From contig NZ_CP160403.1 of the NCBI RefSeq assembly GCF_040782645.1, positions 1,674,001 to 1,738,000 on the forward strand: 64,000 nt of DNA. Reading direction: 5' to 3'. This DNA comes from Streptomyces sp. HUAS ZL42. Lineage in GTDB: Bacteria; Actinomycetota; Actinomycetes; Streptomycetales; Streptomycetaceae. The notes beneath the pieces are model-generated. The model was not told where the DNA came from, ran no database searches, and was given only the letters and a program-made list of their open reading frames with translations. A program made the position numbers and the translations under genes. This document shows, in pieces, positions 434-16,193 of the stretch (the stretch's first letter is position 1; every line of letters begins with the position of its first letter).

Positions 434-1381
434 TCACGCGGCGGGCACCGGCCGGCCCGTGTGCGCGGCTGCCACCATCGCCGCGAGTCCGTCCCGTACG
501 CCTGTCTCGGGCCGAAAACCGAAGGCCTCACGAGCGACCGTGATGTCCGCAGCGGTACGACGGGCGTCTCCGGGCCGGCGGGGCACGCGCACCACACGGA
601 CGGAGGCGCCCAGCAGCCGGAGGAGACCGACGACCTGATTCATCGTCACTTCGGAGCCCCCGCCCACATTGGCCACCCCGCTCCATGACGAGAGCGCGGC
701 CTTGCGCATGGCGGTCACCACGTCCGCGACGTAGGTGAAGTCGCGGCTCTGCTCACCGTCTCCGTACAGCGTGAACGGCCGCTGGGTGAGGGCTGCCGCA
801 ACCAGCCGGGAGAACGCCATGTCGGGTCGCTGCCGGGGGCCGTAGACGCTGAACAAGCGGAGGGATACGGCGGGCACACCGAAAGCGGTGCGATACGTCT
901 CGCACAGGTGCTCCGCGGCCAGCTTGGTCACGCCGTACGGGGAGACGGGCCTCGGACGCACCGTCTCACTGGTCGGATACGTCTCGGCGTCCCCGTAGAC
1001 CGACGAACTGGAGGCGTACACGAGCCGACGCAGCCCGGTGGCGCGGGCCGTCTCGAGGACGCGCTGGGTGGCCAGGACGTTGCGTTCCACGTAGTCGGCG
1101 AACTCCGGGCCCCAGGAACCTCGCACACCGGGCTGCCCGGCCAGGTGGTAGACCGCGTCGGCGTCGGCGAAGAACGCCTCCAGGGGCGCTGCCAGCAGAT
1201 CCTCCTGCCGGAAGGTGAAACGGTCCCGGCCCAGCAGGGGGTGGAGGTTCTCCCGCTTGCGCGCGGGATCGTAGTAGTCCGTCATGGCGTCGACGCCTGT
1301 CACGTCGTCGCCACAGGACAGCAGGTGCTCGCAGAGATGGGAGCCGATGAACCCGGCTGCCCCGGTCACGACGGCGCGCAT
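434..1381 (-). CDS. NAD-dependent sugar epimerase/dehydratase (UDP-glucose/UDP-glucuronate 4-epimerase-like)
   Basis: An extended short-chain dehydrogenase of 315 residues, close to the usual family length. GAAGFIGSH at residues 7-15 is the NAD-binding GxxGxxG. A Ser-rich stretch near 124-127 and Y149-x3-K153 form the catalytic triad. It probably inverts or modifies a nucleotide sugar used for the exopolysaccharide. The ATG at 1381 was chosen because it forms a TGATG overlap with the stop of the upstream sugar transferase gene, implying translational coupling. A second ATG six bases upstream also exists. The exact sugar specificity cannot be read from sequence; UDP-glucuronate or UDP-glucose 4-epimerase is most likely. 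Confidence 0.85.
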   Translation of the reverse strand: MRAVVTGAAGFIGSHLCEHLLSCGDDVTGVDAMTDYYDPARKRENLHPLLGRDRFTFRQEDLLAAPLEAFFADADAVYHLAGQPGVRGSWGPEFADYVERNVLATQRVLETARATGLRRLVYASSSSVYGDAETYPTSETVRPRPVSPYGVTKLAAEHLCETYRTAFGVPAVSLRLFSVYGPRQRPDMAFSRLVAAALTQRPFTLYGDGEQSRDFTYVADVVTAMRKAALSSWSGVANVGGGSEVTMNQVVGLLRLLGASVRVVRVPRRPGDARRTAADITVAREAFGFRPETGVRDGLAAMVAAAHTGRPVPAA

Positions 1382-2106
1382 CAGCATCGGCCTCCCTCGG
1401 TGCGCAGCTTCTCCTCCCCGACCGCCCCGTCGCAGGAGGTCCCGGACCCCTCCCAGGCGGCGGACAGGAGGTACCACGGCGTGCGGGCGACGAAGAGAAT
1501 CACGGTGACCGGGGTGATGTGCGCGAGGAGCTTCGCGTCCATCGCGACCCGGCGCGGGACCATGACCTCGAGGTAGTACCGCTCGGGATCCGGACTGCCG
1601 TCGAACACCACCGCGTCGGAGCGCGAACGGAGTTGGCACGGTCCGGTGAGCCCGGGGCGGTGGCGGAACACCCAGTGGCACTCCGGCGGATAGCGGTGGG
1701 CCAGTTCGACGGCCTCCGGACGCGGACCCACCAGGGTCATGTCCCCGCGCAGGACGTTGAACAGTTGCGGCAGTTCGTCAAGGCCGAAGCGCCTGAGCTG
1801 CCGTCCCGTGCCGGTCACGCGCGGATCGGAGGTGCCGGTGAGCCCGGGACCCGCGGCGTCCTGCCGCATGGTGCGGAACTTGTAGAGAGTGAACTCCTGC
1901 GCGCCCTCACCCATGCGCCGCTGGCGGAAGATCGTCGGCCGACCGCTCGTGGCGCGCACCAGGACAGCGAGAAACAGCAGCAGGGGCGACAGCAGGACGA
2001 GCAGCACCAGCGACACGGCGACGTCCAGGGCGCGGCGCGGCCAGGTGAGGCGCACCGGGGTCATGAGCGGGAGAACCTGCTCTCGCAGGTGACCAGTGGT
2101 GTCCAT
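1381..2106 (-). CDS. Initiating sugar transferase (bacterial polyprenyl-phosphate glycosyl-1-phosphate transferase)
   Basis: It transfers a sugar-1-phosphate to undecaprenyl phosphate, the first membrane step of polysaccharide synthesis. The 241-residue protein has one hydrophobic segment at about 27-51 followed by the conserved cytoplasmic core: LYKFRTM at 74-80, then DELPQLFNVLRGDM at 110-123 and LVGPRP at 125-130. These are the hallmarks of the short (WecP/RfbP C-terminal-like) family; the N-terminal four-helix region of the long forms is absent. The ATG at 2106 was preferred over one 69 bases upstream because of the GGAAGGG just before it. It is the middle gene of a three-gene operon, 32 bp after the glycosyltransferase and overlapping the epimerase. 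Confidence 0.9.
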   Translation of the reverse strand: MDTTGHLREQVLPLMTPVRLTWPRRALDVAVSLVLLVLLSPLLLFLAVLVRATSGRPTIFRQRRMGEGAQEFTLYKFRTMRQDAAGPGLTGTSDPRVTGTGRQLRRFGLDELPQLFNVLRGDMTLVGPRPEAVELAHRYPPECHWVFRHRPGLTGPCQLRSRSDAVVFDGSPDPERYYLEVMVPRRVAMDAKLLAHITPVTVILFVARTPWYLLSAAWEGSGTSCDGAVGEEKLRTEGGRC

Positions 2107-2138
2107 GGATGGTGTCCCTTCCTTGCCTGCCGCCGCCG

Positions 2139-3209
2139 TCACGGCGCCCCTGGGAGTTCCAGAGCCGCCTTCCATCGGTGAAGCCAGGCGTCGTACGAGT
2201 AGCGCCGGCGGACGACGGCCCGGGCGCCGCGTCCCAGCCGCTCGCGGGCGGCGTCCGAGCCGTCGAGCAGCGCCCGGACCGCTTCGGTCCAGTCACCGTC
2301 GTCGCGGGCTGCCGGCATCCGGAACTGACGCAGGATGTCGGCGTTCACCCCGATCGGCGTGGCCACCGAGGGCACACCCGCGGCTCCGTACTGGAGCAGC
2401 TTGTAGCCGCACTTGCCCAGGCTGTAGGTGGTCGCGGGCAGGGGCATCAGACCGATGTCCATGTCGGCCAGTACGGTCCGCTCGCTGTGCGGGCTCCAGG
2501 CGACACGGTCGATGAAGGCCTCCAGACGGCCCAGGGAAGGCTGCGTCGTACCGACGAGTGTCAGGCGCGCGCCGCTGCTGCGGTGGATCTCTTCCAGCGC
2601 TCCCGCCACAAGAAGCAGGTACGCCTCGTTGTCGCGCGAGCCGATCCAGCCGAGCCGCGGTGGATCGTGCAGCGCGTAGGAGGTCTTCGGCGTGTAGTCC
2701 TCCGGCGCCACGCAGCTGGGGATCACCACGACGTCGCCGTGATGATGCGCCGCCCAGTCCCCGAGGATGTCGTTGCCCGCGATGACGCGGTCCGCGTGAC
2801 GCACGGCGGTCCGTGCCTTGTCGGCCTTGGGTGCCAGCCTGCGCGCCAGACCTCCGGCACCGTGATCCCACTGCAGGGCGTCGTCGAAGTCGTACACGGC
2901 GAATTCGGCGCTCGCGAGCAGGCGCCGCTCCCACCAGCCGCGGCTGAGCGGCGAGGCCTCCCGGTGCAGCAGCAGCCGCCTCGGCCGCGCGGTCACGAGC
3001 TGGTGCAGCCGGAGTTCCGCCTGCGCCACGGCCATGGGGTGCCGGGCAAGACGGGCGGGGGCGGCGTCGGCGAGTGAGGCATAGCTGCTGACGGTGAAGT
3101 CGGTGTCGACGCGGTCCAGCCATTCGAAGACGCGGACCCGCGAGCTGCCTGCCCGTCGGCTGTAAGGGGTGATCGCGCAGTGGTCCGGGCGACTGTCCGA
3201 GGCCCTCAT
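2139..3209 (-). CDS. Group 1 (GT4-like) glycosyltransferase
   Basis: A 356-residue GT-B-type glycosyltransferase. The C-terminal half has the recognisable nucleotide-sugar domain: LGWIGSRDNEAYL near the middle, a LTLVG strand, then DIGLMPLP and a GYKLLQYGAAGVPSVATP stretch corresponding to the donor-binding E-x7-E region of GT4 enzymes. The N-terminal half is divergent, so acceptor and sugar are unknown. It is the first gene of the operon glycosyltransferase-sugar transferase-epimerase. The start ATG at 3209 is preceded by CGGAG, and an AT-rich operator-like motif lies only about 25-38 bases upstream, so that motif probably overlaps its promoter. Confidence 0.82.
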   Translation of the reverse strand: MRASDSRPDHCAITPYSRRAGSSRVRVFEWLDRVDTDFTVSSYASLADAAPARLARHPMAVAQAELRLHQLVTARPRRLLLHREASPLSRGWWERRLLASAEFAVYDFDDALQWDHGAGGLARRLAPKADKARTAVRHADRVIAGNDILGDWAAHHHGDVVVIPSCVAPEDYTPKTSYALHDPPRLGWIGSRDNEAYLLLVAGALEEIHRSSGARLTLVGTTQPSLGRLEAFIDRVAWSPHSERTVLADMDIGLMPLPATTYSLGKCGYKLLQYGAAGVPSVATPIGVNADILRQFRMPAARDDGDWTEAVRALLDGSDAARERLGRGARAVVRRRYSYDAWLHRWKAALELPGAP

Positions 3210-3233
3210 ATCAGGCTCCGTCGATAGCGTATA

Positions 3234-3246
3234 TTTACATCGTAAA
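3234..3246. promoter_or_regulatory. Polysaccharide-locus operator-like motif, copy A
   Basis: TTTACATCGTAAA, a perfect 5-bp inverted repeat with a 3-bp spacer, in an AT-rich island of an otherwise very GC-rich region. Seen from the minus strand, the flank GTAAATATACGC is shared with copy C and nearly with copy B. It lies directly upstream of the glycosyltransferase operon ending at 434. A transcription-factor operator or a promoter element is inferred. Confidence 0.65.
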
Positions 3247-3289
3247 CTTGAATATGCCCCGTCGTGAGCACAGAGTCAAGCCCCGGTTT

Positions 3290-4282
3290 TCACGACACCC
3301 TTTGCTTCGACGCTTCAAGGGCCCGCAGATAATTGCTGTACCGAGGAGACAGGTAGTCCTGGTACGCGCCGTTCACCATCGCATCGCGAATCTCGCGCAC
3401 ACCGTCGACGACCCGGAAATCCTTCGTGAACGAGAGGCTCTGCCGTATGGGAGAGAAATCCACTCGGTAGTTCCGCGGATCGCACTCGTCCCCGAGGAGG
3501 TCGATCGTCGATCCGGGGACCTCCTGCAGGACCAGTTCGGCCAGATCCTTGATCAGGTAGTTCTCCTCGTTCGAGCCGCAGTTGTACACCGCGGCCAACG
3601 AGGCCGGCCTTCTTTTGAGGCATTTCAGGATCGCCGAAGCAGCGTCGCGGACGTGGAGGAAGGGACGCCACTGAGACCCTCCGTGGACGACGATCCGCCC
3701 CTGGGCGACAGCACCGGCCGTCATGATGTTCACGGCCAGGTCGAAGCGCATACGGGGAGACACACCGTGCAGCGTCGCGAAGCGCAGGATGCACGGCTCA
3801 GGTCCGGCATTGTGCGCCGAGAGGAGATAGTGCTCCGCAAGCACTTTGGTCTGCGCATAGACCGACTGGGGGTTGAGCGGGGACCAGATGTCGGCCTGTT
3901 CACCCTGGGTGCTGCCGTAGTTGCTGCACGTGGACGCGAAGATGATCCGGCCCACGCCGAATTTCCTGCACGCCTCCATGACCCGGATCGTGCCGAGGTA
4001 GTTCGTCGCCATCGCCAGATCCTCGTCCACGCCGCATGCGGGATCTCCGACGATCGCAGCGAGGTGGACCACGGAGTCGACGTCCGCCAGTACCGTCCGC
4101 CAGGACGCGGCATCCAGCACATCCCCTTGTACGTACGTGACATGAGGCAGGGCGGTTCGGGTGTCCGACACGTAGCCGCTGTCCAGTGAGACGACCTCAT
4201 ATCCGCTGCGGGACAACAACTCGTTGACAACAGAGCCGAGATAGCCTTGTCCCCCGGTGACGAGTACCCGTGTCAGTTTCAT
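3290..4282 (-). CDS. NAD-dependent epimerase/dehydratase of polysaccharide locus
   Basis: A 330-residue extended SDR protein. TGGQGYLGS at residues 9-17 is the dinucleotide-binding loop; S117/T118 and Y142-x3-K146 are the catalytic residues. It resembles nucleotide-sugar epimerases or reductases acting on dTDP-, GDP- or UDP-sugars; specificity is not evident. The ATG at 4282 is chosen over one 42 bases upstream because GGAAGGGGAG sits immediately before it and the protein then begins at the Rossmann strand. The gene follows the GT2 gene by 71 bp on the same strand. Base composition is visibly less GC-rich than the flanking housekeeping genes, in line with horizontal acquisition of the locus. 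Confidence 0.84.
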   Translation of the reverse strand: MKLTRVLVTGGQGYLGSVVNELLSRSGYEVVSLDSGYVSDTRTALPHVTYVQGDVLDAASWRTVLADVDSVVHLAAIVGDPACGVDEDLAMATNYLGTIRVMEACRKFGVGRIIFASTCSNYGSTQGEQADIWSPLNPQSVYAQTKVLAEHYLLSAHNAGPEPCILRFATLHGVSPRMRFDLAVNIMTAGAVAQGRIVVHGGSQWRPFLHVRDAASAILKCLKRRPASLAAVYNCGSNEENYLIKDLAELVLQEVPGSTIDLLGDECDPRNYRVDFSPIRQSLSFTKDFRVVDGVREIRDAMVNGAYQDYLSPRYSNYLRALEASKQRVS

Positions 4283-4334
4283 CTTCTCCCCTTCCGAATA
4301 CCTCGATGCGGCCGATTTGGTCAATCTGGGAGAG

Positions 4335-4348
4335 CCTCATGCATGAGG
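4335..4348. promoter_or_regulatory. 14-bp perfect palindrome between two polysaccharide genes
   Basis: CCTCATGCATGAGG is a perfect palindrome in the short gap between the GT2 gene and the downstream epimerase gene. It is unrelated to the TTTAC motif. It could be an operator or a chance palindrome; there is no U-tract, so a terminator is unlikely. Confidence 0.35.
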
Positions 4349-4353
4349 TGGGA

Positions 4354-5343
4354 TCAGCCGTCGGTCCCCGGTGGGGCGCCGGACGAAATCGGACCCGGCC
4401 GGCGGCGACAAAGCCGGCGGAGGAACTTCCAGTGGACTGCGAGTGAGGTCCGCAGTTCCGCACGCCGACCGCGAAGCACCGCCGCCGCCAGCCGCGCCAA
4501 CGGCTCCAGGGACAGGCTCAGGGCCGTCAGGAGCCACGCCTGAGGCCTGCTCCAGTGCAGGAACGCGTAACGGCTGCGGCTGCACAGCGTCAGATAGTGT
4601 CGCCAGGCCCCGAGTTGGGCCGAACTGACGCCCTCCGCGTGGTAGACCCGCGCTTCCCCGATGTAGTACGAGGGCCAGCCGAGACGGCGTGCCCGCAGAG
4701 CGAAGTCGACCTCTTCCAGGTACAGGAAGTACTGCTCGTCGAAGCCGTTCAGTTCGGTGAACAGCGGTCGGCGCACCAGGAAGAAGGCACCGATGACCTG
4801 GTCGACGGGACCCGACCCCGTCAACTCGTCCGGCCGCAGGTGGTGCGGCGGGAAGAGGGCGGGCACCACCCGGTCGAGCCCTGTCATGGCGCCGACGTAG
4901 ATGCGCAGGCTGGGGAATCTCGAGCAGGAGATCTCCGGGCGACCGAGTTCGTCCACCATGCGCGCCCCGAAGATACCGAAGCTCTCCGCGGTCGGCGTCC
5001 GCAGGAACCGGCCGACGACCCGCAAGGTGTCCGGATACAGCTTCGTGTCCGGGTTGAGGAAGAGCAGGAAGTCGCTGTCGCCCCGGGCGGCACCCTGATT
5101 GCAGGCGGCCGCGAAGCCCCGGTTGCGGGAGTTGCGCACCAGGTCGAGCGGGATGTCGCACGCGGGCAGACCGCAGAGGGAGTCGTCGCTGGAGGCGTTG
5201 TCCACAAGGATGATCCGCCGCACGCACAGCTCCGACTGGTCGGCTCCGGCGATCGCATCCAGACAGTCGCGCAGATGGTGCCCCGCGTTCCAGTTGACGA
5301 TCACGACGTCGGCCGTCAGCGAGGCATGAGCCGCTTCGATCAC
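4354..5343 (-). CDS. Family 2 glycosyltransferase (rhamnosyltransferase-like)
   Basis: A GT-A-fold inverting glycosyltransferase of about 329 residues. It opens with the typical strand VVIVNWNAG, followed by IILVDNASSDDS, RNRGFAAACNQG and FLLFLNPDT (the DxD-equivalent), then DEQYFLYLEEVDFALRAR, which contains the family's acidic catalytic region. The C-terminal segment is hydrophobic and basic and may sit on the membrane. The GTG at 5343 is preferred over an ATG 30 bases upstream because GAGGGAGG lies 6-8 bases before it. It faces the wzy-like gene across a 180-bp region holding motif copy B. It probably adds a rhamnose-like residue to the repeat unit. Confidence 0.85.
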   Translation of the reverse strand: MIEAAHASLTADVVIVNWNAGHHLRDCLDAIAGADQSELCVRRIILVDNASSDDSLCGLPACDIPLDLVRNSRNRGFAAACNQGAARGDSDFLLFLNPDTKLYPDTLRVVGRFLRTPTAESFGIFGARMVDELGRPEISCSRFPSLRIYVGAMTGLDRVVPALFPPHHLRPDELTGSGPVDQVIGAFFLVRRPLFTELNGFDEQYFLYLEEVDFALRARRLGWPSYYIGEARVYHAEGVSSAQLGAWRHYLTLCSRSRYAFLHWSRPQAWLLTALSLSLEPLARLAAAVLRGRRAELRTSLAVHWKFLRRLCRRRPGPISSGAPPGTDG

Positions 5344-5459
5344 GGCAGCCTCCCTCGAAGAACCAGGGAACACGGAAACTCACCACCCCGGACGGCGTCG
5401 CACCGGGCCACAGCGCGGCAGATCGGACAGCACTGGCCCCAAGGGCCCGATTAATGTAT

Positions 5460-5474
5460 GTTTACGACGTATAC
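5460..5474. promoter_or_regulatory. Polysaccharide-locus operator-like motif, copy B
   Basis: GTTTACGACGTATAC, a near-perfect inverted repeat (GTTTAC/GTATAC around GAC), with the extended flank ACGTACA shared exactly with copy C. It lies in the divergent interval between the GT2 gene (minus, 117 bases away) and the polymerase gene (plus, 50 bases away), so it could control both. Confidence 0.65.
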
Positions 5475-5523
5475 GTACAGTACCACGGACATGTCCGACT
5501 TGGTCAACGGGTGAGGTGAAGCG

Positions 5524-6849
5524 ATGAAGGAGTCAGGCGCGGCACCCTTGGACCGACGGTCCCGGATCGCACTCACGCTCACACTCATGGCCGCCGCGAT
5601 GCCCGTACGGGTACTGACCCCGGCATCGACGATCGAGGCGGTGTCCCTCCTCGACATCGTCATCGCCGCCATGGCGGTGACGCTCGTCGTCGACTGCGCG
5701 AGCCGGCCGCTGAATGTCGGATATCCCTGGCTCTTCGCGTTGCTGTGCATCCCGGCGCTCGTCTGCGCCCTGTCGATGCTGTGGACCCAGAGCAGGCTGA
5801 CGACGATGCGCGCGACGGCCAGTTACGTCGAAGGCCTCATCGCCTATCTGTTCGTCGTGCGAGAACTGGAAGGTGTGTCGCCGTCACGCGTCATGGTCTA
5901 TGTCAAGCGGTACGCCTACCTGGTCACCATTCCGGCGGTACTGCTTCTGCTGCACGTACCCGGGTTCGCCCCCCAGGATCTGGATCCCGACGCGGACTCC
6001 GGCGGCAATCTCACCTACTACAGCCGTCTGTCACATCCTGTACTCGGCAGGTCGAACAACCTGGCAACCGTTCTGGCGTTCTTCATCCCGCTGCTCTTCT
6101 ACTGGGGGCACGTCCACCGTGATCGCCGTTTCACCCGTGCCGGCTTCGTTCTGCTGATCGCGGTGGCCTTCACCCAGTCCAGAGGGGTGATCCTCGCCCT
6201 CGTCATCACGGCTCTGATCGCCGCCGCAGGGTCCGTTCTCCGCCGCCGCAGCATCGACAGCCGGACGCTGGGGAAAATCGCGGCGGCCGGAGCCGCGACG
6301 GCCACCGGAGTCGTCCTGCTGCACAGCTTCAATCCCTACACCAGGGAATTCTTCAAGAACCGGTTCAGCCCCACCAACCTCTTCCTCCGCGAGGATCTCG
6401 TTGACGCGGCCATGGACAAGCTGCCGGCTCGGCCTTTCCTCGGTTACGGCGGAGGTGTCGTACCGGACCAGGACCCGGAACTCCTGCTGGGTGTCCACAA
6501 CACTTATCTGCAGCAGATGCTGTCCTTCGGTCCGGTGCTCGGCGTCCTTGTCTCCGTGTCACTGATCGGGACAGCGGTCTTCTTCTTCTCCCGACGGCAG
6601 ACGAGGACGGTGTCACGCGTCATCGGTCTCACCCTGCTGGCTCAACTGCTGATCTTCTTCGCCGAGTCCAGCTTCGAAGGGGCGGTCCTGCGTACGCTCT
6701 TCTACCTGTCCATCGGTCTGGTGACCGCTCTGGCACGATCCTGCGAAGCCTTCGAAGCCCGGACCGGACATCAGCCGTCGGAGCGTCTGCCCGACGCGGC
6801 GGAGCGCACCGTGAGTGCGGCGAACCGCAACGTGTCCCGCAGCAGCTGA
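5524..6849 (+). CDS. wzy: Wzy/WaaL-type O-antigen polymerase or ligase, polytopic membrane protein
   Basis: A 441-residue protein made almost entirely of hydrophobic helices, with one large external loop at about residues 135-180 and a second around 270-320, the layout of the Wzy_C/O-antigen ligase superfamily. It would polymerise lipid-linked repeat units outside the membrane. It is the only plus-strand gene inside the cluster, starts from GAGGTGAAGCG-ATG, and is divergent from GT2 with motif B between them. Its last 79 bp overlap the 3' end of the convergent flippase gene. The sequence family is too divergent to separate polymerase from ligase; the presence of Wzx and Wzz nearby favours polymerase. 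Confidence 0.78.
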   Translation: MKESGAAPLDRRSRIALTLTLMAAAMPVRVLTPASTIEAVSLLDIVIAAMAVTLVVDCASRPLNVGYPWLFALLCIPALVCALSMLWTQSRLTTMRATASYVEGLIAYLFVVRELEGVSPSRVMVYVKRYAYLVTIPAVLLLLHVPGFAPQDLDPDADSGGNLTYYSRLSHPVLGRSNNLATVLAFFIPLLFYWGHVHRDRRFTRAGFVLLIAVAFTQSRGVILALVITALIAAAGSVLRRRSIDSRTLGKIAAAGAATATGVVLLHSFNPYTREFFKNRFSPTNLFLREDLVDAAMDKLPARPFLGYGGGVVPDQDPELLLGVHNTYLQQMLSFGPVLGVLVSVSLIGTAVFFFSRRQTRTVSRVIGLTLLAQLLIFFAESSFEGAVLRTLFYLSIGLVTALARSCEAFEARTGHQPSERLPDAAERTVSAANRNVSRSS

Positions 6850-8270
6850 CGCCGGAGGACGGCCAGCCCCACGACGAAGAGTCCCATGGCACAGCCACCG
6901 GAGAGGATCCCCGAAAGGAGATGCTCCCCCCAGCGCCGGCCGAGGTACCACCCGAACGAGGCCGAGACCACACCGACTCCGAGCGGGGCGAGAAGCGGGC
7001 GCAGCAACCTGGCACGCAGCCGCCGGGCGGTCGCACGGACGAGGACCGTCACTTCGCCCACCCCGGCTGCCACTCCGCCCATTCCGATCGAGGCGACCCC
7101 GATCACCGGAAGCAGCGGAAGCGTCACGGCGAACCAGAGGGCCGTGTGCAGCAACGCCGAGCGCAGGACGGCTCCCGCGTCCTCGACCGCGTAGAGATAT
7201 CCCTGTGTCGCCACCGAGACGGGCCCGCTGAGCGCCAGTCCGAAACAGACACCGGGGAATATCACGGTGGCCGGCTGCCACTGCTCGCCGAAAAGGCCCG
7301 GAATGAGTCCGGGAGCCGCGCCGACGAGACCGGTCAGCACGAAGCAGAGCCCGACCGCGGCCATACCGACCGCGCGCTCCACGAGATGCGACACGTCTTC
7401 CTTCGCCGCGACCAACCGGGACATGGTGGGGAACGAGACCCGCCACAGAGCCATGAGGACCTGGCGGGGAAGCTCCATCACTCGTCGGACGAGACTCCAC
7501 AGTCCCAGCGCCGCGACACCGCTGATCGCGGCCACGGACACGCTGAGAGCCTCGGTCCCGACCAGCCAGGTGGCGTTGACCGCCTGGAAACGCAACCCGA
7601 AGCCCACGAGAGGCCGGATGAGACGGATCGACCAGACGGGCCGCATCAGAGAGCCGGGACACGCCACCGCCACCGCGCCTGTCCCTATCGCGGCCCGCAC
7701 CACCGTTGCCGTGGCCAGCCCCCAGACTCCGAACCCGGCGATCACGGTGACCAGCGCCCAGGCGTAGAAGCCGACCACCTGCGTCACCTCGACCACTGCG
7801 AGACGCCGGTAGAGCAGGGCTCGTTCCAGCAGAATGCGACCCGGAAACTGCAGGGCGACCAGCGGCATGGACGCCACCATGACCGCCACGGTCCAGCCGA
7901 CCCGGTTGCCCAACGGTGCAGCGACCGCCACCGCCAGGAGCACGGCCGTCACCGTCACCCCGAGTTGCAGTGCCGTCAGCGCTCCGAGCTCGCTTCGGCT
8001 CGGCGGCTCCGGGCGCCTGATGAGACCGGCGCCGAGACCGCCGTCGGAGACGAGCTGGGCGAAGACGACGAACGACATGCCGATCGCCACCACACCGAAG
8101 TCGCTCGGTGTGAGAAGCCGGGCCAGGGCCAGGTTGCCGGCAAAGCCGACGAGGAGAATGACCATCCCGCGGGTGCTCACGATCAGAACACCGGCTGCGG
8201 CGCGTCGCTTCAGCTCGGCGCGCGGTATGGCGTCCTGCTGGTCGGGGGTCCGACCGCCGTCCACGGTCAT
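6771..8270 (-). CDS. wzx: Wzx-type polysaccharide flippase (MOP superfamily)
   Basis: A 499-residue polytopic protein with about 12-14 hydrophobic helices. The N-terminus LARLLTPSDFGVVAIGMSF is characteristic of the polysaccharide transport (PST) branch of the MOP exporters. It flips undecaprenyl-linked repeat units to the outer face of the membrane. The ATG at 8270 follows the stop of the GT8-like gene with one base between them (TGACATG), so it is co-translated. The frame is open for a further 360 bases upstream, but that extension is antisense-like coding shadow. It is the last gene of the minus-strand operon that begins with the aminotransferase. Confidence 0.85.
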   Translation of the reverse strand: MTVDGGRTPDQQDAIPRAELKRRAAAGVLIVSTRGMVILLVGFAGNLALARLLTPSDFGVVAIGMSFVVFAQLVSDGGLGAGLIRRPEPPSRSELGALTALQLGVTVTAVLLAVAVAAPLGNRVGWTVAVMVASMPLVALQFPGRILLERALLYRRLAVVEVTQVVGFYAWALVTVIAGFGVWGLATATVVRAAIGTGAVAVACPGSLMRPVWSIRLIRPLVGFGLRFQAVNATWLVGTEALSVSVAAISGVAALGLWSLVRRVMELPRQVLMALWRVSFPTMSRLVAAKEDVSHLVERAVGMAAVGLCFVLTGLVGAAPGLIPGLFGEQWQPATVIFPGVCFGLALSGPVSVATQGYLYAVEDAGAVLRSALLHTALWFAVTLPLLPVIGVASIGMGGVAAGVGEVTVLVRATARRLRARLLRPLLAPLGVGVVSASFGWYLGRRWGEHLLSGILSGGCAMGLFVVGLAVLRRQLLRDTLRFAALTVRSAASGRRSDG

Positions 8271-8271
8271 G

Positions 8272-9261
8272 TCACCCGGTGGCGTGACCGGCGCGCCACT
8301 TGGCCAGACGGGTCCGGATGCCGAGTCGGTGCATCCACAGCAGCTCCTCGCGGATGCCGTCGGCCAGATCCGCACGTGCTCGGTCGACGGAGGCCAACCG
8401 CCCGTGACGCAGCCGCAGGGGCACCTGCTGCGGCTCGAGTCGAAGAGCGACGTCCGGGGCGAGGAGGAGCCTCGACAAGAGCCTGGAGTAGACGTTGCTG
8501 GCGGTGGCCCGCAGCCAGGGCTTCGCGGTGATGTGATGGAGGACGAACGGTTCGGTTCCGTCGGGGTACCTGCAGAGCAGGCGCCGTTCGTCGACGCAGC
8601 GCAGCCCGGGGAACGGTGGGTGCGGAGCAAGCCGGTGTTCCAGAAGCGCCGACTCCTCCTCGGTGAACCGTGAGGCGAGCAGCGCGTTGATCATGTCCTG
8701 GTCACCGAAGTAGAAGGGGGTCAGCTCCTTTGCCCCGCCGTACTTGGTCTGTCGTACGTCGACGGTCTGCTGGGCTTGCGTCAACATCGGCAGCAGCCGA
8801 TCGCCCAGCGACTCCGGGAAGGCAAGCATTCCCGCGTTGAGATATGGATGCCGACGCAGCGGACCCAGACCGAGGGCGGTCTGCCACTCGGGGTGGAATC
8901 TGTCCTTCAGGGGATCGACGAACGCCACGATCCTGCCGTCCCGCGCGTCTTGTACGAGGCTGGTGAGCGGCCGAGTGACGATGATGTCGGCGTCGATCAC
9001 CACCATCACGTCGGCGGGGAGGCGCATCGGTCCCACCGGAAACAGGTAGTACGACACCGTGTCCGACGGGGCGGGGAGGAGCGTGACGTGTCCGGTGAGG
9101 AGCTGTCGCTGCTCTGTCGTCAACCCGGCGTCCACGACGACCACGGGTTCGTCATGGCCCATGAGGCGCAGGGAGTTGAGCAGGCCCACCAGGCCGAGGA
9201 AATACCGTCGGTCCGAAACGGTGTAGAACGCCACGCTGGGTTTCGCTGTGTCAGAGCCCAT
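8272..9261 (-). CDS. GT8-like glycosyltransferase
   Basis: A 329-residue GT-A-type protein. The N-terminus (VAFYTVSDRRYFLGLVGLLNSL) and MVVIDADIIVTRPL, which carries the DxD metal/nucleotide site, match glycosyltransferases of the GT8/nucleotide-diphospho-sugar group. Later YLNAGMLAFP and FGDQDMINALL give the second half of the active site, and the final VLHHITAKPW is the usual C-terminal His motif. It overlaps the upstream Wzz-like gene by 11 bp and is followed at once by wzx, so it belongs to the aminotransferase-led operon. Sugar donor and acceptor cannot be told. Confidence 0.8.
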   Translation of the reverse strand: MGSDTAKPSVAFYTVSDRRYFLGLVGLLNSLRLMGHDEPVVVVDAGLTTEQRQLLTGHVTLLPAPSDTVSYYLFPVGPMRLPADVMVVIDADIIVTRPLTSLVQDARDGRIVAFVDPLKDRFHPEWQTALGLGPLRRHPYLNAGMLAFPESLGDRLLPMLTQAQQTVDVRQTKYGGAKELTPFYFGDQDMINALLASRFTEEESALLEHRLAPHPPFPGLRCVDERRLLCRYPDGTEPFVLHHITAKPWLRATASNVYSRLLSRLLLAPDVALRLEPQQVPLRLRHGRLASVDRARADLADGIREELLWMHRLGIRTRLAKWRAGHATG

Positions 9262-10774
9262 GGCCCGCCTCCCTGTTGACCTTCGACGCCATGTTGTCGT
9301 CGAAACGAAAGTGCGAGCCGGAAACGGCCGCCACCTTGTGATCGGGATCGAAGGGAGCCGAGGCGGGGGCACGTTCCCTCGCTGTGTGCGGAGTCGCCGG
9401 CGGTGTCTCCCGTTCCCGCGTGTCGTAACCCGCTTGACCGAACGCGCCGTTACCCATGCGGTCTCGCCGATGTGTCGCCCCGAAGAGGGCGGTCCCGAGA
9501 ACGGGGGCACCGATGTTGCGGAGGCAGTGGACGGCCCTGCGAACCTCATGGTCGAGGGTCTTGTTCTGATCGGCCACGATCACGGCCTGTCCGGCGACGC
9601 GGGCCAGGAGCACCGCGTCGGCGCCCGTCAGCACGGGTGGCGAGGCGAAGATCACGGCATCCGCTCGCTGTTCGAGTTCTTCGCAGAGCGGGATGAGGTC
9701 GTTCTGCCGCAGGACCGTCGGCGCGGGAGCCGTGCCGGGGGACGATTCGGGACCGGCCAGCACACGAAGGGAGACTCCTTCACGCCACTCCTGAAGAGCG
9801 GAGTCGAGCGGCAGCCGACCGGTCAGTACGTCGGTGAGGCCCTCGGGCCCCGACAGTTTCAGCAGCCGGGCCACACTCGGGCTGGTGAGATCGGCGTCGA
9901 CGAGTATCACCGACTGTCCACTGTGCGCCAGGGCGATCGCCAGGCCCACGGCGGCGCACGGCGCTCCGTCGCCGCCCCTCGGAGAGGCCACGGCGTAGGA
10001 GTGATCCCCGGATTCCGGGAGGCGGGACTGCAGGTTGAGCGCGAACAGCCGATAACCCTCGACGACCTCGGAGGGGGCTCCGCCGGGCAGTGAGGCCATC
10101 TCCCGGATGGCCTGCCGGCCGCGGACGACGCCGAGAACCGGCACGTCGCAGGCCCGCATCAGGTCCTCGGCATCGCGTACGCGCCGGTTGGAGAGCTCAC
10201 GGAGCACCGACCAGACAAGTCCGACAAGGAGCCCCAGGGCCCCGCCCAGAGCGGCGTTGAAGGCTGTGGATCGCGGTACCTGCCTCGCCACGGCACTGCC
10301 GGGGTCCAAGGTTGTCACCCGGACACTGGAATCGCTGCTCTCCGCCTCGTTGATGGTGGCGGAGAGGGCCGGTCCCAGTCCGTCGGCAATGGCCTTCGCG
10401 CGCTGGGGCGACCTGTCTTCGACCGCGACATTGATGGCCGCGGACTCGGCGGGGTTGGCGGCTCTGATCTCACCGCGGAGTCTGTCCGGCGAATACGGGA
10501 GGTTCAGGTCCTTGATGAGCCTGTTGAGCACGGCGTCAGAGGTGAGCACCGGGGTGTAGGCCTGCGCGCGCTTCTGCGCGAGGAGCGCACCCTGGTAGTC
10601 CTCTTCGAGGTCGGAGCCGCGGCTCGATGCCGTCACGATCATCTCGGACTTCGCCTCGTACGGCGGCGGCTGAGCATAGGCCAGCGCGACACCGCTGGCC
10701 GCCCCGAACACCGTCAGGAGGAACAGGGTGACCCAGTGCAGGCGCAGCAGCCGAAAGTACTCCCTGATGTCCAT
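9251..10774 (-). CDS. Wzz-type chain-length regulator fused to a BY-kinase-like domain with lost Walker A
   Basis: A 507-residue protein. Residues about 1-200 are a Wzz domain with membrane helices at 16-33 and 172-190 around an external loop. Residues about 200-440 are a CpsD/CapB-like P-loop ATPase domain: the Walker A' strand VILVDADL (289-296) is intact, but the Walker A site reads SPRGGDGAP at 264-272 where the family has G-x4-GKS/T, so the catalytic lysine and the Ser/Thr are gone. The C-terminal tail is Pro/Ala/Arg-rich with a single Tyr rather than a tyrosine cluster. It should still set chain length; kinase activity is doubtful. It lies between two glycosyltransferase genes in a coupled operon. 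Confidence 0.82.
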   Translation of the reverse strand: MDIREYFRLLRLHWVTLFLLTVFGAASGVALAYAQPPPYEAKSEMIVTASSRGSDLEEDYQGALLAQKRAQAYTPVLTSDAVLNRLIKDLNLPYSPDRLRGEIRAANPAESAAINVAVEDRSPQRAKAIADGLGPALSATINEAESSDSSVRVTTLDPGSAVARQVPRSTAFNAALGGALGLLVGLVWSVLRELSNRRVRDAEDLMRACDVPVLGVVRGRQAIREMASLPGGAPSEVVEGYRLFALNLQSRLPESGDHSYAVASPRGGDGAPCAAVGLAIALAHSGQSVILVDADLTSPSVARLLKLSGPEGLTDVLTGRLPLDSALQEWREGVSLRVLAGPESSPGTAPAPTVLRQNDLIPLCEELEQRADAVIFASPPVLTGADAVLLARVAGQAVIVADQNKTLDHEVRRAVHCLRNIGAPVLGTALFGATHRRDRMGNGAFGQAGYDTRERETPPATPHTARERAPASAPFDPDHKVAAVSGSHFRFDDNMASKVNREAGHGL

Positions 10775-10783
10775 GTCACTCCT

Positions 10784-11938
10784 TCACATGGTGGTGTCGT
10801 CGGCCAGCACGGATTCCAGGGGGCGCAGTGTCATGTCCCAACTGAGCTGCTGTGCCTGCGTATACGCCTGATCACTCGCCGACTGCCATTCGTGCTGGAC
10901 AGCGAGGGAGTCGATGACGTCTGTGAACGTCTCCTCCGTGTAAGGGACAGAGCCCTTCAGCAGTTCCAGATGGTTCCGCCAGGCGGGAACCAGGACCGGA
11001 AGCCCGTACGCGAGATACTGCGGGTGTTTCGCGGAGAATCCGTTGCTTCTCAGTGCATCCCGAGTACAGGTGATCAAACCGAACTGGTAGTTCTTCACGA
11101 CGTCAGCAGACGCATAGCCGCGATAGCGCAGACCTAGGCGCGGATCTGGGGGTGGTCCACCGTAGACGTCGATCGGGTAGCGCTGGGAGAGACGTGCGAG
11201 GAGGGGCAGGTCGATGAATCGGGAGCTCAGAGAACCCAGATAGACGATCCGCGGCGGGGCCGCGAAGTGGGCGCGCTCGGGCGAGGGGTCGCACCCCCAG
11301 TCGAGGCGCACCATGTTCCGGCCCGAGATGCCGTAGTGCTCGACGGCGTATTGCGCATACGTCACCCAGAAGTACGACAGTACGTCGACCTTTTCCAGGA
11401 GCCTGATTTCCCGGCGGCGAAGCCTGCGATGCTGCCGGTCGGTCAGCTTGCCCTCGTTGTACAGCTCGTCCGAGAACGGGGTGGGGCAGTCGTACCACGT
11501 GCGAGCGGAGGTGACGCCGGTCAGCACCTCAGCGGCGCACGGGTGGACGCACATGACCAGGTCGAAGGCGTCGAGCGGCAGGCGCGCCCTCAAGAGGGCA
11601 CGGCGCAGGCTGAGACCGGCGGTCAGCGCGTAGTACGAGAGGAAGCGTCTGCCGGGTCCCCCATGGCGCGTGATCAGCGAGGACACCGCCTCGGTCGCGT
11701 ACAGCGCGACTTGGCGGGGACGGGGGCCCGGGAGCCTTCTGCCGAACAGTGAGCCCGCGCTGGGTGTGACGGCCAAGTCCGCAACGTCGAACAGGTGCAC
11801 CTCGTGCCCGCGTCGTCGCAGGAAGCGGTGGATCTCGGTGGGCCTCACCGTGTTCGAGTAGCCGTCCAGTTCACAGATCACCAGGACGCGCTTGCGGTGT
11901 GTGGGCGCAGCGGCGTCGGCCGGCTTGGTCGCGTTCAC
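10784..11938 (-). CDS. Glycosyltransferase, GT-B fold (GT4-like)
   Basis: A 384-residue protein. It has an N-terminal acceptor domain with VLVICELDG and GHEVHLFDVAD strands, then a donor domain with RIVYLGSLSS and a long segment SNGFSAKHPQYLAYGLPVLVP that fits the donor-binding loop of GT4-like enzymes. The start is the GTG at 11938, which overlaps the LCP gene's stop as GTGA and has AGGAGA upstream; a longer start exists but lies inside the LCP gene. The next gene, the Wzz protein, begins 9 bp after its stop. It probably adds one residue of the repeat unit. Confidence 0.8.
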   Translation of the reverse strand: MNATKPADAAAPTHRKRVLVICELDGYSNTVRPTEIHRFLRRRGHEVHLFDVADLAVTPSAGSLFGRRLPGPRPRQVALYATEAVSSLITRHGGPGRRFLSYYALTAGLSLRRALLRARLPLDAFDLVMCVHPCAAEVLTGVTSARTWYDCPTPFSDELYNEGKLTDRQHRRLRRREIRLLEKVDVLSYFWVTYAQYAVEHYGISGRNMVRLDWGCDPSPERAHFAAPPRIVYLGSLSSRFIDLPLLARLSQRYPIDVYGGPPPDPRLGLRYRGYASADVVKNYQFGLITCTRDALRSNGFSAKHPQYLAYGLPVLVPAWRNHLELLKGSVPYTEETFTDVIDSLAVQHEWQSASDQAYTQAQQLSWDMTLRPLESVLADDTTM

Positions 11939-12966
11939 GGTGGATCTCCTGCCTCGGTCCTCTGGCACAGTGCGCGCAGCTTGCCCCTGTCGAGAATCAG
12001 CACGTACTGGCCGTCGATCCGGTCCGGCCGGACGATCGGCGCGGTCGTGAAGCGAGCGTCCGCGGTGTGCAGGTGGCGCAGGCCGAGCGCCAGGTCGCGC
12101 AGGTCGCCGTTGGACATACGGTCGTCCACGCTCACGGTCCGGGTGATCGCATCGAGCGTCCGGTTGATCTTCAGCGGGTTGGTGATGCTCACGTCGCCGC
12201 GGATCTCACCGACGAGGGCCCGCAGGAACTGCTGCTGCCGTTTGATCCGGTCCAGCTCCCCGCCCGGCAGGCCGTGGCGCTGACGGACGTAGGAAAGCGC
12301 TTCGTCGCCGTTCATGGTGTGGGTGCCCGCGGTGAAGTGCCGTTGCTGCTCCGGGTCGTAGGAGTTCTCGTGCACGGCCACGGGCACGCCACCGACCGCG
12401 TCGGTGAGGGACTTGAAGCCGTGCCAGTCGATGACGGCGAAGTGGTCGACCTTGACTCCGGTGAGATGCTCGACCGTCTGGATGAGGAGCGGCGGGCCGC
12501 CCCAGGAGAACGCGGCGTTGATCTTCGCGGAACCGTGCCCGGGGATGGGCACCCAGCTGTCGCGGGGGATCGAGACCGTGTACGACGCGTGCTCACCGGG
12601 GGCGAGATGCACCAGCATGAGGGTGTCGCTGCGCTGCGCACCGAACTTCCACAGGGAGGCCTCGGCGTCCTCGCCGGTGGTCGGCTTCGCAGAGCGGCTG
12701 TCGACACCGGCCAGCAGGAAGGTGGTACCGCCACCGCTTCCGTCCTCGGGCCGCGGTCCGTCCGGGAAGGCGTCGGGTATCCGGGTGACCTGGTCACCGT
12801 AGTGGTTCGTCGCCCACCAGACACCGCCGACACCGAGCCCGAGCAGGGCGAGCACGGCAACCGCCAGGCATATCAGCACGCGGCCCAGCAGTCGGCGACG
12901 CGGCCGGGTGCCCGTCCGGAGGCTTCGCCTCGACGGCCACCCGGACCACCGGCGGCGCGGGGACAT
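11935..12966 (-). CDS. LytR-CpsA-Psr (LCP) family glycopolymer transferase
   Basis: A 343-residue membrane-anchored protein. It has a very basic cytoplasmic N-terminus, a single transmembrane helix at about 29-50, then the extracellular LCP domain with FLLAGVDSRS, RSDTLMLVHL and SIPRDSWVPIPG, which include the Arg/Asp residues that bind the pyrophosphate of lipid-linked polymer. LCP enzymes attach undecaprenyl-linked glycopolymers to peptidoglycan. Its place inside this operon suggests the exopolysaccharide becomes wall-bound. The ATG at 12966 overlaps the aminotransferase stop as TGATG, and its own stop overlaps the next GTG as GTGA. Confidence 0.9.
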   Translation of the reverse strand: MSPRRRWSGWPSRRSLRTGTRPRRRLLGRVLICLAVAVLALLGLGVGGVWWATNHYGDQVTRIPDAFPDGPRPEDGSGGGTTFLLAGVDSRSAKPTTGEDAEASLWKFGAQRSDTLMLVHLAPGEHASYTVSIPRDSWVPIPGHGSAKINAAFSWGGPPLLIQTVEHLTGVKVDHFAVIDWHGFKSLTDAVGGVPVAVHENSYDPEQQRHFTAGTHTMNGDEALSYVRQRHGLPGGELDRIKRQQQFLRALVGEIRGDVSITNPLKINRTLDAITRTVSVDDRMSNGDLRDLALGLRHLHTADARFTTAPIVRPDRIDGQYVLILDRGKLRALCQRTEAGDPP

Positions 12967-14294
12967 CAGGGGTCCTCCGGGTGGACGCCCACCATGACGG
13001 CAGGTGGCGAGGCCGTCGGGCTCACAAGGGAGTGCGGTCTGCCGGCCGGTCGCGGTGCGAGCCGGATCAGCTCCCCGCAGACCCGGTCGACCGCCTGATC
13101 GGTGAGCCCGGGGTGCAGGGGCAGGGACAGCAGTTGGGGGAACAGCGTGTCCGCTCCCGCCAGGCCGCCCGGTGGAGTGGTCGCGGTGCGCCGGAAGTGC
13201 GGCAGGTGGTGCAGCGGGATGAAGTGGACCGAGGTGCCGATGCCACGGTCCGCGAGCTGGTCGATCAGTTCGTCGCGCCCGGTCCCGTACTCCTCCAGTA
13301 CCCGCACGACGTACAGGTGGTGGGCGTGCCGCCCCGGGGTGGGAACGTCCAGCGGCTCGAGGCCGGGGACGGCCTCCAGCGCCGCCGCGTACCGTTCGGC
13401 CACTGCCCTGCGTCGTCGCTGCCAGTCGTCGAAGTGACGGAACTGGGCCCGTCCTATGGCGGACTGTATGTCCGTCATGTTGGCCTTCAGGCCGGCCTCG
13501 TCGACGGTGTACCGCCAGTTGCGGCCGGGCTGGTGCCGCCGCCATGCGTCGGTGGACATTCCGTGCAGCCTCGCGCGGCGGACCCGCAGGGCGAGCTCCG
13601 GGTCGTCCGTGGTCACCATGCCGCCCTCACCGATGGGCAGGTTCTTGGTGGCGTAGAAGCTGAAGCAGGTCGCCGCTGACAGGTTCCCCACAGGCCGGTC
13701 GCCCACCGACGTGCCCAGGGCGTGTGCGGCGTCCTCGACGACGTGGGACAAGGGCAGGCGCGCGGCCCGCGCCAACTCGGCGACCGGTGCCGGGGCCCCG
13801 GCGTAGTGCAGGACCATCATCGCCTGGGGGCATCCGCACGCCCGGGCCGCCCGGGCAACGGTGGCCGGGGTCGGCATCGCCGTACGTGGATCGACGTCGA
13901 CCAGCACAGGCCGCAGCCCGGCGTGCAGGATCGCCTGGGCAGCGCCGCAGAACGTCACGGCGGGGACCAGGACCGTCCCGCCGGCCGGCAGCCGCAGGGC
14001 CCGCAGCGCCAGTTCGAGCGCTGCCGTGCACGAACTCACCGCGATCGCGTGCTCGGCCTCGACACGGGCTGCGAACTCGCTCTCGAAGAGTTCCGTCTCG
14101 TGGCCGGTGGTCACCCAGCCCGAGGCCAGCACACGCTGCGCGGCGCGCCGCGCTTCGTGGCTGATCCGGGTCACGGCGAAGGGCACGTCCGGTTCCCTCG
14201 CACGGCCCGCGCCGACGGCACGGCCGGAGGTCACGCCGTACAGGGCGCGCGAGGCGTGGGCGACTGGTTGCTGCCGGAGGCGATGAACTGTCAT
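12966..14294 (-). CDS. DegT/DnrJ/EryC1/StrS-family PLP sugar aminotransferase
   Basis: A fold-type I aminotransferase of 442 residues. It has the PLP-phosphate segment (AVSSCTAALELAL, about 85-97), VEDAAHALG at 186-194 with the cofactor-binding Asp and His, and the Schiff-base lysine K217 in FYATKNLPIGEGG. It makes an amino sugar from a 3- or 4-keto nucleotide sugar. The ATG at 14294 is preceded by GGGGAG. It heads the minus-strand operon aminotransferase-LCP-glycosyltransferase-Wzz-GT8-Wzx. Motif copy C lies 68-80 bases upstream, and a TetR gene diverges from the same interval. Confidence 0.88.
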   Translation of the reverse strand: MTVHRLRQQPVAHASRALYGVTSGRAVGAGRAREPDVPFAVTRISHEARRAAQRVLASGWVTTGHETELFESEFAARVEAEHAIAVSSCTAALELALRALRLPAGGTVLVPAVTFCGAAQAILHAGLRPVLVDVDPRTAMPTPATVARAARACGCPQAMMVLHYAGAPAPVAELARAARLPLSHVVEDAAHALGTSVGDRPVGNLSAATCFSFYATKNLPIGEGGMVTTDDPELALRVRRARLHGMSTDAWRRHQPGRNWRYTVDEAGLKANMTDIQSAIGRAQFRHFDDWQRRRRAVAERYAAALEAVPGLEPLDVPTPGRHAHHLYVVRVLEEYGTGRDELIDQLADRGIGTSVHFIPLHHLPHFRRTATTPPGGLAGADTLFPQLLSLPLHPGLTDQAVDRVCGELIRLAPRPAGRPHSLVSPTASPPAVMVGVHPEDP

Positions 14295-14361
14295 GTACTT
14301 GCTCCCCGCTTCTTGCGTCCTTGGGGAACGGAGACGTCTCAGCGAGTCTCCATGGCGTATA

Positions 14362-14374
14362 TTTACGTCGTATA
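14362..14374. promoter_or_regulatory. Polysaccharide-locus operator-like motif, copy C
   Basis: TTTACGTCGTATA inside a longer AT-rich stretch (14356-14380) that matches copy B at most positions and shares GCGTATATTTAC with copy A. It lies between the aminotransferase operon (minus) and the TetR gene (plus), 68 and 76 bases from their starts. It is a candidate binding site for that TetR protein or for a common activator. Confidence 0.65.
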
Positions 14375-14449
14375 CGTACACTTTGCGCCCGGAAGCGCAT
14401 AGAGTCAACACGTACAGGAACTGAACGGCTGACTCTCGGGAGGCTGGGC

Positions 14450-15193
14450 ATGGCGAAGGAGCAGGCCGGGGCTCGACGCAACGGCGAGGGAACCGACGAT
14501 CCCGCGCGTCGCGCGAGCGATCGCGGCCGCTACGGCCGGCTGAGCCGGGAGCGCGTGCTGGCCAGCGCTCTGGAGCTGGTGGACCGGGAGGGCCTCAGCG
14601 CGCTGAGCATGCGCCGACTGGGGTCCGAGCTCGGCGTGGAGGCAATGGCGCTCTACCGGTACGCAGCCAGCAAGGACGCTCTCCTCGACGGCCTGGTCGA
14701 AGCTCTCTACCTGGAGCTCGAGGAACGCCTGACCGCGGAGCCCGCGGCGGCCGAGGGCACATGGCGCGCCGAGCTCCACCGCATCGCGCGGTCGATGTAC
14801 GAGGTCTGCCTCGCCCACCCCCAGGCGGTGCCGCTGCTCGCCACCCGCATGCTGGCGGTCCCGCTGGCTCGGCGGCCCCTCGCCGTACTGCGCGACCACG
14901 AGCGCGTGCTCGCACTCCTCCGGGGTGCCGGCCTCGACGAGGCCCGCGCCTCCGCCGTCTTCCGGGCGTTCACCGCCTGGCTCCTCGGCTATGTGTCCAT
15001 GGAACTGCGCCCCATGGTCGACAACCCCGAAGAAACGGACCCCGCCTTCCGTATGGGCCTGCACCGCCTCTCACCCCAGGAACTGCCCACCTTGCGGGAA
15101 ATCGCCACCGCGCTCGCCGAGCCCGGCGGACCCGAAGGCCTGGCCACCGGACTCGACGCACTGCTCGACCGATTCGCGGGAACAGAAGACTGA
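14450..15193 (+). CDS. TetR/AcrR-family transcriptional regulator with TetR-like C-terminal domain
   Basis: A 247-residue one-component regulator. An Arg/Gly-rich leader is followed by LSRERVLASALELVDREG and the helix-turn-helix SMRRLGSELGVEAMALYRY, which has the canonical Y-x-Y/H recognition helix, then KDALLDGLVEALY. The C-terminal two thirds is the all-helical ligand-binding domain of the TetR_C_1 type. The ATG at 14450 has CGGGAGG before it; a longer in-frame start would run through motif copy C. It diverges from the polysaccharide operon and is convergent with the aldo/keto reductase, so the polysaccharide cluster and/or itself are the likely targets (inference). Confidence 0.88.
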   Translation: MAKEQAGARRNGEGTDDPARRASDRGRYGRLSRERVLASALELVDREGLSALSMRRLGSELGVEAMALYRYAASKDALLDGLVEALYLELEERLTAEPAAAEGTWRAELHRIARSMYEVCLAHPQAVPLLATRMLAVPLARRPLAVLRDHERVLALLRGAGLDEARASAVFRAFTAWLLGYVSMELRPMVDNPEETDPAFRMGLHRLSPQELPTLREIATALAEPGGPEGLATGLDALLDRFAGTED

Positions 15194-15206: not shown

Positions 15207-16193
15207 TCAGTGCGCCGCGTCCAGCCTCTGCCGCTGCTCCCCCGTCAGCTCGAGATCCACCGCAGCCAGATTCTCCTCCAACTGCGCCACCGACGACGCC
15301 CCGACCAGCGGAATGATCGGCGCCTCCCCGCCCAGCTGCCAGGCCAGCACGACCTGGTTGACGGTCGCGCCCGTCTCGCGGGCCACGTCGTTCAGGGCGG
15401 CGAGCCGGGCCAAGGTGCCGGGGTGGTCGTAGTCGGGCGGCAGGGGCTTGTCCGGGCGCGTGTAGGCGCCGGTGAGCAGGGGTGAGTACGCGATCAGGGT
15501 CAGACCGGGCTCGGCCCGCAGGTAGCTCTGCAGTTCGGCGCCCGCGTGGCCGAGACTGCCGTCGGGGAAGAGGTCGCCGGGTATGTCGGTGCGCGGGCGC
15601 AGGTGGCTGTGCTGGTACTGGAGGACCTCGTAGCCGGGCAGTCCGGCCGCTGCGGCGAGCGCGCGGGCCCGTTCCACCCGCCAGATCGCGTGGTTGCTGA
15701 CGCCCAGCAGGCCGACGGTGCCCTCGGCGACGAGTGCGGCGAAGCCCTCGACGGTCTCGCGGAGGGGGACGGTGTGGTCCTCGATGTGCGCGTACAGCAG
15801 GTCCAGCCTCTCCACCCCCAGGCGCTCCCGGCTGCGCTCGGCCGACTCGCGGATCGTCTTCGCCGACAGGCCCTCCGCGTTGTCGACGTAGCTGGTGCCC
15901 GGGGCCAGGGGGCGGGCGCCGAGTTTGGTGGCCATGACGATCTCGTCGCCGATGCCGCGGCTGCGCCGCCAGCGTCCGAGCAGTTCCTCGCTCTGGCCGC
16001 CCTGACTTCCGTCCACCCAGAAGGCGTAGTTGTCGGAGGTGTCGATGAAGGTGCCGCCCGCCTCGACGTAGCGGTCGAGGACGGCGAAGGAGGTCTCCTC
16101 GTCCGTCCGTGAGCCGAACAGCATCGCGCCCAGCGCGAGCACGCTCACCTCTCGGCGGGTGGCGGGATCGGTGCCGATGGTGCGGTACTTCAT
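15207..16193 (-). CDS. Aldo/keto reductase
   Basis: A 328-residue NADPH-dependent TIM-barrel oxidoreductase. The catalytic tetrad is visible as D51 and Y56 in DTSDNYAF, K90 in ATKLG and H136 in YAHIEDH. The C-terminal GASSVAQLEENL is the usual NADP-phosphate-binding segment. It would reduce aldehydes or ketones in the cytoplasm; substrate unknown. The ATG at 16193 is preceded by a GGGAGGATTCACC-like site. The upstream interval carries a perfect CTTGAAG-CGCA-CTTCAAG inverted repeat of the MerR-operator kind, suggesting induction by an electrophile through a regulator encoded elsewhere. Confidence 0.9.
   Translation of the reverse strand: MKYRTIGTDPATRREVSVLALGAMLFGSRTDEETSFAVLDRYVEAGGTFIDTSDNYAFWVDGSQGGQSEELLGRWRRSRGIGDEIVMATKLGARPLAPGTSYVDNAEGLSAKTIRESAERSRERLGVERLDLLYAHIEDHTVPLRETVEGFAALVAEGTVGLLGVSNHAIWRVERARALAAAAGLPGYEVLQYQHSHLRPRTDIPGDLFPDGSLGHAGAELQSYLRAEPGLTLIAYSPLLTGAYTRPDKPLPPDYDHPGTLARLAALNDVARETGATVNQVVLAWQLGGEAPIIPLVGASSVAQLEENLAAVDLELTGEQRQRLDAAH

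Follow-up and report, generated by a model that had tools for sequence, protein, structure and literature searches.

A palindromic operator before dispersed sugar-polymer genes of Streptomyces and the TetR-family protein that probably reads it

IcaR of staphylococci is a TetR-family repressor that stands beside and divergent from the ica polysaccharide operon and serves this one neighbouring operon. Here we describe a palindromic motif and an adjacent TetR-family gene in a polysaccharide locus of Streptomyces sp. HUAS ZL42, contained in a stretch of 64,000 nucleotides (contig NZ_CP160403.1, positions 1,674,001 to 1,738,000). This whole stretch is called the window; plain coordinates refer to it, and C1 coordinates to the genome. 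We propose, with a probability of roughly 0.85, that the TetR protein encoded at 14450-15193 reads this motif as its operator and would be the dedicated repressor of a dispersed regulon for a sugar polymer, either an exopolysaccharide or a wall polymer. The likeness to IcaR lies in a TetR-family repressor, a polysaccharide purpose and a divergent neighbour. The difference is one of reach, as the sites described here spread over 6.5 Mb, in contrast to the single neighbouring operon of IcaR.

SimR (PDB 2y2z, 3zql) and ActR (2opt, 3b6a) are TetR-family repressors of Streptomyces which share about a quarter of their residues with the TetR protein of this locus (24-26% in structure alignments), and the best reading, by analogy, is that this protein would work like them at DNA. 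The target of SimR is the gene of a divergent efflux pump, whereas the sites described here stand before eight dispersed glycan units. The gene divergent from our TetR gene encodes a DegT-type aminotransferase and not an efflux pump, and none of the curated NCBIfam TetR equivalogs was reached (best 58.2 bits vs. a cut-off of 265). The protein is classed only as a member of the TetR family, and it is no efflux repressor.

One survey predicts that divergent TetR-family regulators less than 200 bp from their neighbour repress that neighbour (PMC3511530). The start codons of the aminotransferase and TetR genes are divergent and 155 bp apart, within this distance, so the aminotransferase gene is predicted to be repressed (PMC3511530). 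The survey takes the neighbouring gene as the target, and the word polysaccharide is absent from its main text. Among the matches listed from the open-access literature there was no paper on such a regulon, subscription papers being mostly outside that search; the motif strings led to one paper there, an unrelated one. The word epimerase is absent from the main texts of two papers on cyclic di-GMP (c-di-GMP; PMC7911125, PMC13232838).

Operator sites and their promoters

A sequence-only reading of the window had noticed three intergenic copies of an AT-rich motif, which are real: the window holds the 13-mer TTTACNNCGTAWA three times and no more, at 3234-3246, 5461-5473 (given before as 5460-5474) and 14362-14374, and the first copy does lack the right flank that the other two share. 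With up to two mismatches there are six matches, which are the same three palindromes on both strands, compared to a mean of 1.05 and a maximum of 5 in 100 shuffles. The exact 13-mer is found nowhere else in the genome; a reversed control pattern gave four matches, and across the whole genome the 13-mer by itself therefore lacks significance. Each copy is the centre of a 25-bp palindrome with the core TTTACNNNGTAAA, and the consensus of this palindrome upstream of TetR genes in other species is GTATATTTACGACGTATACGTACAC. A 25-bp matrix built only from 59 foreign sites, all upstream of TetR orthologues in other Streptomyces, gave scores of 30.5, 47.8 and 49.3 bits for copies A, B and C. As a null, order-3 Markov sequence of 3 Mb was scanned on both strands; one position reached 12 bits and none reached 14. 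The operators and the promoters that accompany them are:

Operator A: 3228..3252, 25-bp palindrome, centre 3240, core 3234-3246
Operator B: 5455..5479, 25-bp palindrome, centre 5467, core 5461-5473
Operator C: 14356..14380, 25-bp palindrome, centre 14368, core 14362-14374
Promoter of operator A: 3251..3279, minus strand, TTGACT (3279-3274), 17 bp, CATATT to 3251; faces the group 1 glycosyltransferase (GT1) operon
Promoter of operator B: 5479..5507, minus strand, TTGACC (5507-5502), 17 bp, GGTACT, without NANNNT; faces the GT2-epimerase genes
Promoter of operator C: 14380..14408, minus strand, TTGACT (14408-14403), 17 bp, CAAAGT; directed at the aminotransferase operon

The 9.87-Mb genome was searched with an 18-mer and with the palindrome, each at up to three mismatches, so that sites with more mismatches would escape. 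Eight strong sites were found, scoring 24.3-49.3 bits with the foreign matrix:

Sites of at least 24 bits: A, B, C, C1:1673358, C1:1662287, C1:1628127, C1:6482813, C1:8161270

The matrix scan confirmed that the window holds no further copy. A fourth strong copy (C1:1673358, 47.3 bits) lies ~640 bp to its left and four more lie elsewhere; with eight strong sites across 6.5 Mb, reaching genes outside the locus, the regulon is not the compact one that had been imagined. Such a scan had been named as the way to judge whether a dedicated regulator exists, and its outcome, eight strong sites in total with few of them beyond the locus, favours one. The best scored match after these eight (C1:8240248, 16.6 bits) was excluded as doubtful, and five matches without a fetched locus stand outside the scoring (C1:8589070, 9119502, 9264426, 7550912 and 7974759). 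The relaxed palindrome, at up to three mismatches, is weak evidence, with 18 matches per strand vs. 26 for its control.

All eight sites have TTGAC on one side and none on both; read toward the operator, it stands 37-45 nt from the operator centre, and at six of them NANNNT follows after 17-18 bp. The TTGAC of A, B and C is directed at the minus-strand operon each time, and at none of them toward wzy or the TetR gene. The earlier claim of a copy for every visible transcription unit therefore holds in part, for the minus-strand operons at A, B and C and not for wzy or TetR; each promoter is one-directional. The same geometry recurs in relatives, where TTGAC stands on one side of 95 of the 123 sites with enough flank and on both sides of none; among 14,600 random flanks, 72 have TTGAC. 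NANNNT is present 16-18 bp after TTGAC at 88 of these 95 sites, vs. 189 of 1206 TTGAC of the same loci. In every one of the 56 relatives' sites with TTGAC at -40 the promoter signature stops at -12. For the 19 sites with TTGAC at -41 its end falls one base earlier in 89%, and the eight sites with TTGAC at -38 fit this phasing more poorly. The fixed phasing of TTGAC and -10 to the palindrome means that promoter and operator form one element, with the operator over the presumed start, and a bound repressor would cover the transcription start point.

A TetR dimer would bind the palindrome, which is conserved upstream of the TetR gene. The operator is predicted to begin where the -10 region of the promoter (TTGAC, ~17 bp, -10) ends, over the likely transcription start, and TetR sitting there would block the access of RNA polymerase. 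A ligand would release the repressor and jointly open the operons of one sugar-polymer pathway: the three window operons, the one directly to their left outside it, and a further four genes or operons at greater distance, of which one would bring in a c-di-GMP enzyme.

The reader of the operator

The TetR protein has an N-terminal helix-turn-helix (PF00440, 36.8 bits, cut-off 24) and a ligand-binding C-terminal domain (PF02909, 45.4 bits, cut-off 21). Its predicted model has the all-helical TetR fold (predicted local distance difference test, pLDDT, 86.0; predicted template modelling score, pTM, 0.79), and the closest PDB matches are TetR-family proteins, with SimR and ActR among those listed. 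A relative from S. davaonensis, BN159_1545, is 82% identical to the protein. Residues 20-30 form a conserved arm before the helix-turn-helix, with 9 of 11 positions at 0.89 or above over 77-79 sequences. This arm aligns with the extension of SimR, in a part where the model is poor (pLDDT below 50 for residues 6-20).

The adjacent TetR protein, named before as the one to use in a binding test, is the most likely reader, and comparison across the genus argues for it. Through the TetR sequence 78 Streptomyces loci were recruited. The 400 bp before the TetR orthologue hold a core site in 59 loci if one mismatch is allowed and in 69 if two are; five of the 78 loci lack any site that reaches 20 bits. 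A less biased survey of 246 Streptomyces genomes, with the motif defined as a 21-mer at up to one mismatch and TetR at E ≤ 1e-60, found the motif in 32 genomes, TetR in 44 and both in 30 (Fisher 1.6e-25); the reversed 21-mer had no match in the same genomes. An orthologue of the galE-like epimerase that follows one of the sites outside the window (E ≤ 1e-165) is present in 33 of the 246, 31 of them TetR-positive (Fisher 1.1e-26). The operator is present in 20 of the 30 galE loci that were fetched; in the other ten galE lies ~2 kb from a TetR match, and may thus sit further down an operon. An orthologue of a GT2 gene behind one of the operators occurs in eight genomes, with the operator in all five that have TetR (our own included) and without it in the TetR-negative G137 and G194. 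The remaining genome, G099, a draft of ~1020 contigs, has the operator, and no TetR was found there.

Several observations weigh against the proposed repressor and its operator. Two of our eight sites, B and C1:6482813, lack NANNNT, and 28 of the 123 relatives' sites have no exact TTGAC on either side. At TetR-upstream sites of relatives the promoter points away from TetR in 58 of 72 and toward it in none, with none found in 14; since it never points toward TetR, orientation gives no support for TetR autoregulation. The strict motif is missing from 14 of the 44 TetR genomes, and TetR was found in neither G099 nor G197, two of the 32 genomes with the motif. The 78 loci were themselves recruited via TetR, and samples from related species are not independent of one another.

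Some of these points would suit another regulator that reads the operators while TetR is a mere neighbour, notably the two motif genomes without TetR and the absence of a TTGAC promoter directed at TetR. The nearest candidate is a GntR/UTRA regulator (L112:6454-7239), whose gene adjoins the galE operator directly upstream in our own genome. The GntR protein, present in 215 of the 246 genomes, fails to follow the distribution of the motif, which TetR does follow, and is an unlikely reader; the motif upstream of TetR in 59 of the 78 loci also speaks against any such regulator, and we consider it improbable. Slightly less probable still is that TetR binds the sites as an activator, or chiefly limits its own transcription. 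TetR-family activators do exist, AtrA being named as one in the survey (PMC3511530); the five divergent TetR proteins with spacings below 200 bp considered there are all repressors. Both here and at foreign sites the operator stands downstream of TTGAC and adjoins or overlaps the -10 region and the presumed start, a position in which one would not expect an activator.

A chance likeness of AT-rich intergenic DNA, or plain promoter sequence without a regulator, could draw on the control counts given above, four against three for the exact 13-mer and 26 against 18 for the relaxed palindrome. It is disfavoured by the cross-species matrix, with scores far above the null, by conservation of the site upstream of TetR, by the fixed TTGAC phasing, and by the absence of the motif from most TetR-negative genomes, and we give it hardly any weight. 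A dedicated TetR repressor accordingly remains our preferred reading, and the idea of one operator common to the polysaccharide locus is upheld, so that the interpretation from which this work started is partly supported overall.

Two loci stand apart. In G197 an operator precedes a shortened galE (L169:5491-6200) with no TetR found, apparently a relict of the regulon. In S. coacervatus two TetR copies lie ~12 kb apart on the same contig (L062 and L081) with operators upstream of both, and these paralogues probably share one operator.

Genes behind the operators

The five operators outside the window end ~17-63 nt upstream of a start codon. The one ~640 bp to the left precedes a GT4 glycosyltransferase and then a UDP-glucose dehydrogenase; another precedes the galE-like epimerase and then a PAS-GGDEF-EAL protein; two more stand before a GT2 and before a GT2 followed by a sortase. 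The last (C1:8161270) precedes a lone glycosyltransferase, 60% identical to the product of window gene 10784-11968. Relatives of the GT2 and sortase pair adjoin TetR, with sites, in three loci (L037, L070 and L078), so our remote GT2-sortase site is probably a target that has moved.

In relatives, a facing gene was called at 82 of the 95 promoter-bearing sites, giving 79 distinct genes; the gene caller, a simple base-composition heuristic, called none at the other 13. By clusters and the Pfam matches of cluster representatives, 76 of the 79 belong to glycan families, including three GH15 glycosidases, and the other three are two sortases and one FAD oxidoreductase. When the genes were scanned one by one with Pfam, Epimerase was found in 22 of 79 facing genes vs. 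3 of 79 random genes of the same loci, a control that includes at least two galE genes themselves standing behind a site. PF13641 was found in 28 of 79 vs. at most 2 of 79 random genes (it is not among the 25 of 95 families listed for these).

It is possible, though doubtful, that the promoter and operator (TTGAC, ~17 bp, -10, operator over +1) form a portable cassette, the unit of evolution placed before differing glycan genes across Streptomyces. One TetR might then co-control cluster-borne and remote genes, including the sortase-linked GT2 and the galE/GGDEF-EAL operon, which would link the polymer with the developmental second messenger, and the ligand might be an intermediate of the polymer pathway. 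If the proposed regulon is real, one sequence sign would mark parts of a Streptomyces sugar-polymer pathway, lone glycosyltransferase genes far from clusters would gain a role that cannot be guessed from their neighbours, and the switch, which also includes a c-di-GMP enzyme, would be testable.

That enzyme, the PAS-GGDEF-EAL protein, is encoded directly after galE behind its operator, left of the window (L112:8401-11637, C1:1663401-1666637 in G000), and 21 of the 78 loci hold relatives of it, with at least 45% identity over more than half its length. In L081 (7625-9727), L091 and L094, operators, some of them paired, precede an Agd3-like deacetylase. Its family is known in connection with galactosaminogalactan, which for some species hints at the nature of the polymer.

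The locus in the window is of the Wzx/Wzy type, with Bac_transf, a Polysacc_synt_3 flippase, Wzy_C and Wzz together:

434..1681, minus strand: NAD-dependent sugar epimerase/dehydratase; longest open reading frame (ORF), true start probably near 1381
1381..2175, minus strand: initiating sugar-phosphate transferase (Bac_transf)
2139..3209, minus strand: group 1 glycosyltransferase, the first gene that operator A precedes; ATG at 3209
3290..4324, minus strand: sugar epimerase behind operator B
4354..5373, minus strand: GT2 glycosyltransferase, the first gene that operator B precedes; start codon uncertain (5373, 5343 or 5304)
5524..6849, plus strand: Wzy-type polymerase/ligase, sharing its intergenic region with operator B; no TTGAC promoter toward it
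6771..8630, minus strand: Wzx-type flippase (Polysacc_synt_3); longest ORF
8272..9549, minus strand: weak GT8-like glycosyltransferase (E 0.0074, below the Pfam cut-off); longest ORF
9251..10774, minus strand: Wzz chain-length determinant with a tyrosine-autokinase-like ATPase part
10784..11968, minus strand: glycosyltransferase, weak GT4 match, the relative of the gene behind C1:8161270
11935..13545, minus strand: LCP-family glycopolymer transferase, domain at residues 305-448; longest ORF
12966..14294, minus strand: DegT-type sugar aminotransferase, the first gene that operator C precedes; ATG at 14294
14450..15193, plus strand: putative TetR-family repressor (P0001), 247 aa, Pfam TetR_N and TetR_C_1; proposed reader of the operators

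An aldo/keto reductase gene adjoins TetR at 15207-16193, and its relatives are present in 20 of the 78 fetched loci.

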